Source: Candidatus Cloacimonetes bacterium HGW-Cloacimonetes-2 (GTDB taxonomy: Bacteria > Cloacimonadota > Cloacimonadia > Cloacimonadales > Cloacimonadaceae). From it: a DNA stretch of 64,000 bases. Numbering within the stretch: the first letter of the stretch is position 1; the number at the start of each line of letters is the position of its first letter. The translations under genes were made by a program, and so were the position numbers. The stretch is taken from positions 48,211 to 112,210 of the forward strand of contig PHBP01000010.1 of NCBI GenBank assembly GCA_002842035.1, given 5' to 3'. The notes below the pieces were generated by a model that made no database searches, was not told the origin of the DNA, and saw only the letters and a program-made list of their open reading frames with translations. Below are positions 25,218 through 64,000 of this stretch, in pieces.

Positions 25218-25688
25218 TTAGATATTCAGCCTGATATAGGCTTTACCCAGCGGACTATTGCCGCTATTTACCTTAATCTCGATCTCCCAATCTCCCAGCA
25301 TCATAAAATTCACCGGGATGGCATAGCGATTGCTGCGATTGAGCTGCATCGGCTTATCTCCGGTATCGTGAGCGCCGCGCATCGAGGGCATATAGGCATT
25401 TGCGCTCAGCCTGAGATTGGTCACCGGCCTTCTGTTTTTGTCAAAAGCACGGATCAAAAGGATGCGGTTGCCAATGCGGGGAGTCTTATTCCATTCGTAG
25501 CTGATGTAGTAATTTTCATTTATCCAGTGCGCGGCTCCAGCACGCCCCATTATCTGGCTGCGTTCGGGCGGAGTATTGGGATTGCGGGCTTCCAGGCTCC
25601 CTGCACCGGAAGGGCAGGAACCGCAATGCTGTGCCAGAACCGGCAAAATCAGCATAGTGGCTATTATGATCAGTATAGATATCTTCAT
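25218..25688 (-). CDS. Exported FixH/YtkA-like protein with HCGSC motif
   Basis: 156 residues. A signal peptide (about 1-19) is followed directly by HCGSCPSG, a Cys/His cluster at the mature N-terminus suited to binding copper or a similar soft metal. The rest (WKTP-like strands, MQLNRSNRYAIPVNFMMLGDWEIEIKV) resembles the FixH/YtkA immunoglobulin-like domain that accompanies copper and cytochrome assembly. Second gene in the operon after the CsoR-family repressor. The function is inferred from that context. Confidence 0.62.
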   Translation of the reverse strand: MKISILIIIATMLILPVLAQHCGSCPSGAGSLEARNPNTPPERSQIMGRAGAAHWINENYYISYEWNKTPRIGNRILLIRAFDKNRRPVTNLRLSANAYMPSMRGAHDTGDKPMQLNRSNRYAIPVNFMMLGDWEIEIKVNSGNSPLGKAYIRLNI

Positions 25689-25702
25689 TGTAATCTCCTG
25701 TA

Positions 25703-26005
25703 TTAGTTTTTGGTCATTCTGTCGATAGTTTTGCGGAGCTCAGCCAGCACATCCAACGAGCCGGATTGTATCTGCTCCAGAACGCAGGTATTGAGATGAG
25801 CTTCGAGCAGGGATTTGGAGACAGAGCCCAAAGCGCTCTTGATCGCAGAAATCTGGTTTATGATATCGTCGCAGTAAACATCCGATTCTATCATCTTCTG
25901 CACGCCCCTTACCTGTCCCTCGATCCTCTTTAATCTATTATTCAGCTTCTTCTTAAACTCATCATCGTGATGAGCTTTCTTGGGCTCCATCTTGCAATGA
26001 TCCAT
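25703..26005 (-). CDS. csoR: CsoR-family metal-sensing transcriptional repressor
   Basis: 100 residues, the usual length. All-helical DUF156 fold with LNRLKRIEGQVRGVQKMI near residue 22. The Cu(I)-sensing triad appears as Cys in DVYCDD (residue 44), His and Cys in EAHLNTC (residues 69 and 73), the pattern of copper-type CsoR rather than RcnR. An extra N-terminal MDHCKMEPKKAHHDD adds possible metal ligands. It heads a minus-strand operon of six genes. A G-tract palindrome characteristic of this family overlaps the transcription start (26026-26042). Repression relieved by copper is the likely mode. Confidence 0.9.
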   Translation of the reverse strand: MDHCKMEPKKAHHDDEFKKKLNNRLKRIEGQVRGVQKMIESDVYCDDIINQISAIKSALGSVSKSLLEAHLNTCVLEQIQSGSLDVLAELRKTIDRMTKN

Positions 26006-26025
26006 TATCTCGTTACTCCTTTCAT

Positions 26026-26075
26026 ATACCCCTGGGGGGTATTTTTATAATAAGCAAGATCGGTGCCTATGCCAA
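26026..26075 (-). promoter_or_regulatory. CsoR-type operator and promoter of the metal-response operon
   Basis: On the minus strand, TTGGCA (26070-26075), a 17-bp spacer and TATTAT (26047-26052) give a good promoter. Immediately downstream, over the expected transcription start, lies the near-perfect palindrome ATACCCC-T-GGGGGGTAT (26026-26042), the classic A/T-flanked C/G-tract operator of CsoR/RcnR-family repressors. The AAAGGAG ribosome binding site and the ATG of the repressor gene follow. Confidence 0.8.
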
Positions 26076-26106
26076 GTATTTTTTTTGATTCCCCCTGATT
26101 TCTTTG

Positions 26107-26194
26107 GATCACCGGCAGATCACCAGCAGATCAAGAGCAAATCAAGTCGAACGTGGTTCGAGGTGATTTCGGCTTGATTTCGACTTGATATCGG
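26107..26194. repeat. Palindromic array of eight 11-bp units
   Basis: Eight consecutive 11-mers in exact phase: three of GATCACC/AAGAGCA type, AATCAAGTCGA, a central ACGTGGTTCGA, then GGTGATTTCGG and two CTTGATWTCGR units. The right half is largely the reverse complement of the left, so the whole folds around TCGAACGTGGTTCGA. It lies between the minus-strand DUF1801 gene stop and the upstream side of the csoR promoter. An inverted relative is at 63873-63949. Confidence 0.75.
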
Positions 26195-26224
26195 TATGAC
26201 TGTTAGGTAAGGATGGGGAATTGC

Positions 26225-26563
26225 TTAACTCAGTTTAAAGGATTCCTTAAAGACCAATAGCAGCTCATCCCAAGGGATTTGATCAGTCAGTCTGAGGTTG
26301 ATAGTCCCAATTCTGGTTTTGATCTGGGGATTTCTCTCTCTGAATTGTGCTATTCCCGTTGTGTTTCCGGGATAGATGGAGACTCCGCCTTTCCAGTAAC
26401 CGAGATAGATATATCCTTTGGAATTGAAATACTTAATCACCCCATAAGCCATTTTGGTGCTGATATCCGGGAGCAGTTCTTTCAGTTTGGCTACTACTTG
26501 CAGGTACAGGTCTCTGCGCTGATCAGTGGCACTATCTATATAATTCTGTATGTCGTTAATCAT
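26225..26563 (-). CDS. DUF1801 (YdhG-like) family protein
   Basis: 112 residues. It follows the DUF1801 pattern: an N-terminal helix IQNYIDSATDQRRDLYLQVVAKLKELLPDISTKMAYGV, a beta core with YIYLGYWKGGVSIYPG, and a C-terminal helix with IPWDELLLVFKES. Members include proteins proposed as iron chaperones, but the function is unproven. It appears to be a single-gene unit. An 11-bp repeat array lies directly beyond its stop. Confidence 0.75.
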   Translation of the reverse strand: MINDIQNYIDSATDQRRDLYLQVVAKLKELLPDISTKMAYGVIKYFNSKGYIYLGYWKGGVSIYPGNTTGIAQFRERNPQIKTRIGTINLRLTDQIPWDELLLVFKESFKLS

Positions 26564-26862
26564 AATTACCTCTATTGCGACTATAAACTAGTCCTTATCC
26601 TGGCACTAGCAAACGAATATGGAGCATGCTGCTATATGTCGCCGGTAGTAACAGGCAACCTGGGACTATTTAAATCCTGCTTTGCGGGGGAGAGGCATTA
26701 CGTTCGACTAATCATCCTGTAGTACATATTCAGGCTTGCATTCTTCGCAGGATGTTTACAACTTGGGAGCGGAGAAGTAACGGCAATAGAAAAACCCTTG
26801 ACATCTGATTGAATGATAATAAAGGTGATGTAGGTGGGAAAGAGACAGAAAAGGAGTTTTGT

Positions 26863-34421: not shown

Positions 34422-34802
34422 GCTGAAAAAAGACAGCCGGATCCAAGAGCGCAAACCTCCATAAACAATGAGTATAGCCTATGAATACCGGGATATCCCT
34501 ATTCCCACCGCTGCTGATGTGATTTGTCATCGTTTAAGGCTCCTATTCGATTGATATCTCTTAAACACTTGCCAGACAGCTATATGATGGATGCTCATAC
34601 AGGATTCAAGCAGGATACAAGCAGGATTGAAGCAGGAATTGAATAAGAGCGCACCGGGGGATAAATAACTTTACTAAAAAACAGGGCTCTGAATAATGTC
34701 AACTGAGCGCGATTTGGTTTTTGCGACAGCTTGCAGATCAATCAGATAGCGCGTCGCAAGCAAAAGCTATGAAATTACAAAAAAAAGATAGAAGGTGAAT
34801 CA
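34422..34802. other. Divergent intergenic region between fhs and the decarboxylase operon
   Basis: About 450 bp in all separate the two divergent genes. Besides the fhs promoter it contains the 11-bp repeat block at 34600-34643 and an A-rich run just before the mmdA ribosome binding site (AAGGTG). No coding frame is convincing. Confidence 0.5.
34600..34643. repeat. Four tandem 11-bp units
   Basis: CAGGATTCAAG, CAGGATACAAG, CAGGATTGAAG and CAGGAATTGAA follow each other without gaps. The period matches the arrays at 26107-26194, 46249-46309 and 63873-63949, but the unit differs and there is no clear palindrome. Confidence 0.7.
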
Positions 34803-46157: not shown

Positions 46158-46248
46158 CAGTTAGTAGTCAGGCAGTTATAGCTTGATCGCTGCGCATAGT
46201 TCAAAGATCGTACCTACGCGTATGTAACCGTCCCTCCTGCTTGAATTC

Positions 46249-46309
46249 TCTGGTGATCCCCTAGTGATCCTCTGGTGATTCCCTTGTGGCGACAAGGGAA
46301 TCACCAGAG
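46249..46309. repeat. 11-bp units leading into an 18-bp perfect palindrome
   Basis: TCTGGTGATCC, CCTAGTGATCC and TCTGGTGATTC follow in phase. CTCTGGTGATTCCCTTGT (46270-46287) is then repeated exactly in reverse complement at 46292-46309 around a 4-base loop (GGCG). There is no T-run, so a simple terminator is unlikely. The GGTGAT words are shared with the arrays at 26107 and 63873. Confidence 0.75.
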
Positions 46310-46351
46310 CAGTGCGAGGGGTTTGCCTGTGTTTTCAAAGGGGAGGAATCA

Positions 46352-63594: not shown

Positions 63595-63863
63595 TCCCTA
63601 TCCCAGTCGAGACCGATGCCATGCTCGCCATCATCAATCTGCCCAAAGAAATGTCCAACAATGGCATCTTCAGGGAGCATCAGGGATTGGTACTTGAGAT
63701 GATCCGCTCTTTGGTTCTGCAAGAGCACTATGATCGAGCAACTCACGAAGATATGCCGGAAGAGGAGCCATTTCTGGTTTCTTTTCGCCACACCCTAAAT
63801 CCTTTGCAAGCAAAGTCTTCAGGGAACCCGATTTTCCCTCCCTCCCCTCCTCTTTCCGCATAG
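63591..63863 (+). CDS. Small hypothetical protein after the lysozyme
   Basis: 90 residues from a GTG whose last two bases and following A form the lysozyme stop (GTGA overlap). This is the coupling expected in a phage lysis cassette. I recognise no domain. The final 20 or so residues (Pro/Ser-rich) look like read-out into non-coding sequence, so the true protein may once have been shorter or continued differently. No membrane segment is predicted by eye, so it is not an obvious holin. Confidence 0.4.
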   Translation: MIPIPVETDAMLAIINLPKEMSNNGIFREHQGLVLEMIRSLVLQEHYDRATHEDMPEEEPFLVSFRHTLNPLQAKSSGNPIFPPSPPLSA

Positions 63864-63872
63864 TCTAAAGCA

Positions 63873-63949
63873 TATCAAGAGCAGATCAAGAGCAAATCAC
63901 CTCGAACCCGGTTCGACTTGATTTGCTCTTGATCTGCTGGTGATCTCCT
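63873..63949. repeat. Palindromic array of seven 11-bp units
   Basis: TATCAAGAGCA, GATCAAGAGCA, AATCACCTCGA, central ACCCGGTTCGA, CTTGATTTGCT, CTTGATCTGCT and GGTGATCTCCT in perfect phase. The right half is close to the reverse complement of the left around TCGAACCCGGTTCGA. Read on the minus strand it matches the 26107-26194 array over most of its length, so the two are copies in opposite orientation. Confidence 0.75.
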
Positions 63950-64000
63950 GTAGATCAAGGAAAACAAAGCGGATGGCAATCGCCGTTGAAAGTGGTGCAA

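Follow-up and report, generated by a model that had tools for sequence, protein, structure and literature searches.

The palindromic array at positions 26107–26194 of the window (the whole 64,000-nucleotide stretch analysed, G000:C6:48211-112210) is one of at least 206 elements of three 11-bp-phased types, A, B and C, in the genome that carries it, G000, a MAG of 2.5 Mb in 14 contigs that is 99.55% complete. The elements measure about 115–130 bp and bear a word every 11 bp, in arms inverted about a short spacer or mainly in one arm. They lie in intergenic DNA, mostly 6–12 kb apart, and copies of all three types avoid one another at 4–5 kb. This exclusion across families is the strongest fact we report: unrelated sequences are spaced as though they were identical in kind. 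Between species the geometry of the elements is conserved and the sequence is not. The spacing rule and the indifference to sequence are strong, novel results, and we give about even chances to the reading that the array is one of a genome-wide set of DNA-level architectural elements recognized by their shape.

Phased elements of types A, B and C

The array comprises 88 bases, exactly eight units of 11 bases with no indels, and its second half mirrors the first about a dyad at 26154, as the first-pass annotation had described from the TCGAAC..GTTCGA centre (Table 1). Tandem Repeats Finder returned a period of 11 in each half. That annotation was also right that the array is neither a CRISPR nor a simple microsatellite: identical repeats with unique spacers are not what is found, the 11-bp units having no spacers and the arms being inverted. 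Its placement of the array next to the CsoR promoter holds for this copy, which has csoR on one side and, on the other, a DUF1801-like gene with its 3′ end towards the array; the neighbourhood is nevertheless incidental, because other copies occupy intergenic gaps of every orientation. The extent it gave was confirmed as array but was slightly short, since conservation reaches further on both sides. A separate sequence upstream of csoR, TACCCCTGGGGGGTA (window 26027–26041), has the look of a CsoR-type operator, which makes self-regulation of csoR probable; this sequence bears no relation to the array.

The oriented core of type B gave 70 matches in G000, corresponding to 57 elements since palindromic cores score on both strands, and a reversed-pattern control gave 0. 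The array is therefore not a chance occurrence. Its first description had staked the idea on further copies that keep phase, and all copies do so, both the 57 in G000 and 27 aligned in the sister species G001. The search for period 11 that it proposed gave, in 191 kb of G000, 17 clusters at lag 11 and at most 2 at any other lag from 7 to 16, making 11 the sole lag clearly in excess. Across 51 aligned type B copies the units fall at exact 11-bp steps while their sequences vary, again as proposed, and conservation fades out some 63 bp to each side of the dyad. The inner unit is not symmetric: about 80% of copies have AATCACC-TCGAAC in one arm and AAATCAAG-TCGAAC in the other. The central triplet (window 26153–26155 here) is nearly confined to CAC/GTG, CGG/CCG and CGC/GCG.

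Type A, (CTAGGGGATCA)n beside CCTTGTCGCCACAAGG, numbers 74 elements (73 by pattern and 1 variant by autocorrelation), and type C, (CTTGAATCCTG)n, at least 75 among the matches listed. The 64-kb window holds two elements of type B, one of type A and one of type C. Computed over whole elements, letter autocorrelation has its peaks at 11 and 22 in each of the three types, and the half of type A without an obvious array likewise peaks at 11. The ends of A and C are alike and inverted (CTCCCTGCTTGA / TTCAAAGGG-like); those of type B differ.

Table 1. Phased elements of the window, with the genes flanking the array (positions are those of the window)
Feature	Position	Strand	Basis and remarks
Whole type B element, dyad 26154	26091..26217	−	Conservation across 51 copies; orientation from the oriented-core match G000:C6:74352-74376:- and from inner-unit polarity (ACC arm to AAG arm on the minus strand)
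Array units in plus-strand order, GATCACCGGCA GATCACCAGCA GATCAAGAGCA AATCAAGTCGA ACGTGGTTCGA GGTGATTTCGG CTTGATTTCGA CTTGATATCGG	26107..26194		
Left arm, four 11-bp units, GATCACCGGCA GATCACCAGCA GATCAAGAGCA AATCAAGTCGA	26107..26150	+	Tandem Repeats Finder, period 11
Central palindrome, TCGAAC-GTG-GTTCGA	26147..26161	.	57 such centres in the genome
Right arm, inverted units in plus-strand letters, TCGAGGTGATT TCGGCTTGATT TCGACTTGATA TCGGTATGACT	26158..26201	−	Tandem Repeats Finder, period 11
csoR	25703..26005	−	Pfam PF02583, E 5e-30
DUF1801-like gene	26225..26563	−	Pfam match below the curated cut-off
Type C element, (CTTGAATCCTG)n	34539..34654	−	Array 34600–34637; outer limits approximate
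Type A element, (GTGATCCCCTA)n beside CAAGGG...GTCGCCAC core	46231..46345	−	Core 46275–46297; outer limits approximate
Second type B element	63846..63972	+	Centre TCGAACCCGGTTCGA at 63902–63916

Spacing and regional distribution

When types A, B and C were pooled, with type C at its listed minimum, 2 of 192 neighbour intervals were shorter than 4 kb, against 57 expected and a minimum of 37 in 5000 simulations under null models that are approximate. The median interval was 9.3 kb, and 32 intervals fell at 6–7 kb. Neighbours of unlike type behaved in the same way, with 2 of their 85 intervals shorter than 4 kb where about 24 were expected. With A and B only, none of 112 intervals was below 4 kb; 5000 runs of uniform placement gave a mean of 27 and a minimum of 14, and with simulated intergenic sites the expectation was 26. 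The longer gaps between A and B elements often hold elements of type C. We considered scarcity of available sites as a cause of the even spacing and ruled it out by the supply of intergenic gaps longer than 150 bp, of which there are 57 in about 255 kb, or roughly one per 4.5 kb. Relatives are consistent with the exclusion seen in G000: 13 intervals in G001, drawn from several families, had a minimum of 4.8 kb (p 0.007), and minima were 7.7 kb in G035 (p 0.05) and 8.5 kb in G028 (p 0.09).

In one of the two close pairs, L292 (G000:C14 ~111.4 kb), a B and a C element stand 87 bp apart, perhaps nested side by side. At L101:5288-5343 (G000:C2 ~425.3 kb) another 11-bp array, built of different words (CCCGGGCCTAT / CCCGGGTCTAT), has a type C element about 100 bp away; this array is an exception to the spacing rule that falls outside the A/B/C count.

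The types also segregate by contig (chi-square p 2e-22). C1, C4, C11 and C14 carry mostly A, C2, C6 and C9 mostly B, and C3, C8 and C10 mostly C; dnaA is on C14, an A contig. GC skew was uninformative for placing the origin or the terminus. DnaA boxes (TTATCCACA) occur in two clusters, with 9 in the dnaA locus (L113, C14) and 6 at L103:8030-8157, which is G000:C1 ~8.0–8.2 kb, near a lon-like protease gene.

Conserved geometry and changing words in relatives

A pattern of three TGATs spaced 11 bp apart, applied to genomes of the taxonomic family, found phased arrays in many of them. Their words are TGATTAAGGCT-like in G010, G016 and G035, TGATTCCGTAT in G028, and TGATAGCGTAA and TGATGACTCCC in G006, a census of word families that is incomplete as some of them came through the TGAT pattern. 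In G011, an unbiased scan at lag 11 brought out arrays that lack TGAT (words GATATGGGAAT, GTAACACTTCC and GTTAGAGGATC). The aligned elements of the sister species G001 have GACTCTTCGCC words around AACACTTTGCT, and the same genome carries rarer phased families built on GCGG, CCTAAAC, ATGGGTG and GGTTC. Samples of four other families of the order (G039, G041, G044 and G046; about 374 kb) had no lag-11 excess.

Between G000 and G001, elements at L012, L056, L057, L058, L070 and L091 agree in position within about 220 bp and have different words; absences are also many. These matches are no proof of conserved position, because roughly a third of long intergenic gaps contain an element. At strain level, one element recurs at the same site in a second strain, L046 (JAQVMI010000243.1), where the flanks are about 99% identical, the inner array is free of indels and the central triplet is CAC instead of CCG. 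This contig is filed in the Cloacimonadota MAG STF1_13, and L046 is, we infer, among the matches of G053. We had considered that type B had spread to another taxonomic family (G053, L046) and rejected this in view of the 99% identity of JAQVMI010000243.1 to G000:C2:386110-388231; on that identity, the contig is most likely a mis-binned one from the same species as G000. The match to a public Cloacimonadota contig also places G000 in the phylum Cloacimonadota.

Proposed shape reading, candidate partners and alternatives

For the array itself, the first-pass annotation had offered protein binding to one face of the DNA or a hairpin that must keep register, 11 bp being about one helical turn. We compared the arms of each element with arms drawn from different elements, and its hairpin option did not survive this comparison, nor did the covariation of paired arms that it had suggested looking for appear. 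Complementarity of an element's own arms was 0.751 against 0.759 for shuffled arms in type B, and 0.858 against 0.867 in G001, giving no pairing signal in either. The innermost unit of type B had a slight own-arm excess (p 0.014), and outer units matched below chance (p_low 0.0005–0.001 in type B and 0.04 in G001), perhaps because long perfect palindromes are avoided. Absence of arm covariation in two species argues that duplex DNA is read and not a hairpin, leaving one-face binding the preferable option of the two. Action at the level of RNA, as bidirectional terminators or as stabilizers of mRNA 3′ ends, would suit the palindromic layout, the near-perfect arms in G028 and in several G001 copies, and the gap orientations of type B (tandem 15, convergent 12 and divergent 7 of 34 elements), among which convergent gaps are somewhat enriched relative to all long gaps (12/34 vs 9/57). 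These orientation counts are approximate, the gene calls coming from a simple codon-scored ORF picker. Yet divergent gaps hold 7 of 34 type B and 5 of 24 type A elements (type A: tandem 13, convergent 6, divergent 5), which argues against a terminator or 3′-UTR role. Together with the anti-correlated outer units, the lack of any Rfam match at E up to 1 across 25500–26700, and an 11-bp repetition within the arms that a hairpin does not need, this makes an RNA function very improbable.

If the elements are instead read by shape, the cell would respond to helical phasing (shape and bendability) and not to the word, since unrelated words keep the spacing that interchangeable ones would. Shape reading would imply a partner protein able to bend or wrap some 120 bp of DNA. 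Copies would spread and be homogenized within a lineage, with the words turning over and the geometry and spacing preserved. From evenly distributed sites, one to each 10-kb domain or so, the elements could then control supercoiling (or anchor loops); supercoils diffuse in 10-kb domains (PMC3420936), with which the 9.3-kb median spacing of the elements may be compared. Somewhat short of an even chance, in our estimate, is the further step that they make up a chromosome ‘ruler’, a class defined by helical geometry, whose unrelated word families are functionally interchangeable, keep about 5 kb clear of one another and are shared out by region, and which marks every ~6–12 kb with shape-coded DNA-wrapping sites. 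What marks out supercoil domains and loops along bacterial chromosomes is a long-standing question; the sites described here are phased and mutually exclusive, match roughly the scale of a supercoil domain and occur in a phylum that has been little studied. Evolution has decoupled sequence from geometry in them, which makes them a natural experiment on DNA shape recognition; repeat finding based on sequence would class them as many unrelated repeat families. A search of the open-licence literature yielded no description of these elements.

The leading candidate partner is DNA gyrase, although we rate its involvement as less likely than not. Gyrase wraps about 130 bp through its GyrA C-terminal domains and prefers GC/AT alternation phased at ~11 bp. 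The E. coli gyrase motif is symmetric, spans 130 bp and has a 10.75-bp GC periodicity in both flanks that is attributed to indirect readout (PMC6379681); a 10–11-bp GC preference is common to the gyrases of three species (PMC12324340), and the right arm of the Mu strong gyrase site (SGS) has AT repeats that face the protein (PMC11626157). The elements resemble such sites in size and periodicity, with ~63 bp on each side of the dyad, two arms of phased GC/AT alternation around a core and autocorrelation at 11 in A, B and C, and are likened to them in being read by shape and not by word (PMC6379681, PMC12324340, PMC11626157). Direct comparison with the Mu site lent gyrase no support. With the Mu dyad set at 17877.5 from the annotated cut site and the scissile positions of the structure paper (PMC11626157), superposing the dyads in a first-harmonic comparison put the GC phase of the elements half a turn from that of Mu (about 7.4 vs 2.3 of 10.75 bp), and the phases match only with gyrase placed some 5 bp away from the centre of the palindrome. 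Scanned over Mu, the raw GC kernels derived from the elements failed to pick out the strong gyrase site. Across families, GC phase measured from the dyad shows weak clustering (p 0.03), a comparison partly conditioned on the TGAT pattern, and the rotational relation of arm to arm across families is not conserved (p 0.7). The pBR322-type site near 992 has full core preference and almost no arm periodicity, so it offers no second yardstick. Moreover, words are exactly repeated, in high copy, and within one genome are far more uniform than the degenerate gyrase motif requires, which counts against gyrase.

That uniformity would be expected if each word family were instead the operator of its own sequence-specific nucleoid or regulatory protein, perhaps of macrodomain type, making contacts on one face every 11 bp. 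The regional segregation of the families favours this as well, and CarH-type regulators, which bind 11-bp direct repeats, offer a precedent, with sites on one helix face. CarH-type operators, however, serve few promoters, whereas the elements number some 200 genome-wide, have inverted arms and change their words. Separate proteins would also leave the mutual exclusion of unrelated families unexplained; the low-copy families of G001 with unique words count against this reading too, and we consider it unlikely.

We give a similarly low probability to non-autonomous mobile elements of the MITE or REP kind, whose phased units would be transposase binding sites and whose spacing would come from target immunity, as in Mu and Tn7, where immunity acts at kilobase scale. 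High copy number, near-identical copies in G028, the ends shared by A and C, and words specific to lineages all fit such an origin. MITE-like small repeats such as Correia/NEMIS, ERIC, BOX and RUP are 100–150 bp, intergenic, present in tens to hundreds of copies and in some cases bounded by inverted ends; the elements are like them in size, placement and copy number but differ in their internal helical phasing and in comprising several unrelated families, mutually exclusive over about 5 kb. Type B, with other ends and unrelated words, is excluded just as strictly from A and C, so that one machinery would have to recognize all three, and the one element compared in the strain with 99% identical flanks occupies the same site. 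REP/BIME elements with their RAYT are likewise intergenic, palindromic and interspersed in about 100 or more copies, and BIMEs bind gyrase. The present elements are longer, have no GTAG tag, contain an internal 11-bp array and lack arm covariation, and the RAYT-like gene of their own genome has another REP.

That gene, the sole Y1 (RAYT-like) transposase gene of G000 (L093:8377-9063, minus strand; G000:C2 ~456.4–457.1 kb), lies in an island of restriction-modification-like character; close to it is a REP of its own, CCGTAGGAGCGACATCCTGTCGC, and no phased arrays adjoin it, so the link to a REP-associated transposase raised by the first-pass annotation was rejected. G024 and G032, with 12 and 11 TGAT-phased matches, have no detectable Y1 transposase. 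In G000, two 188-bp direct repeats, 90% alike, overlap the ends of the Y1 gene.
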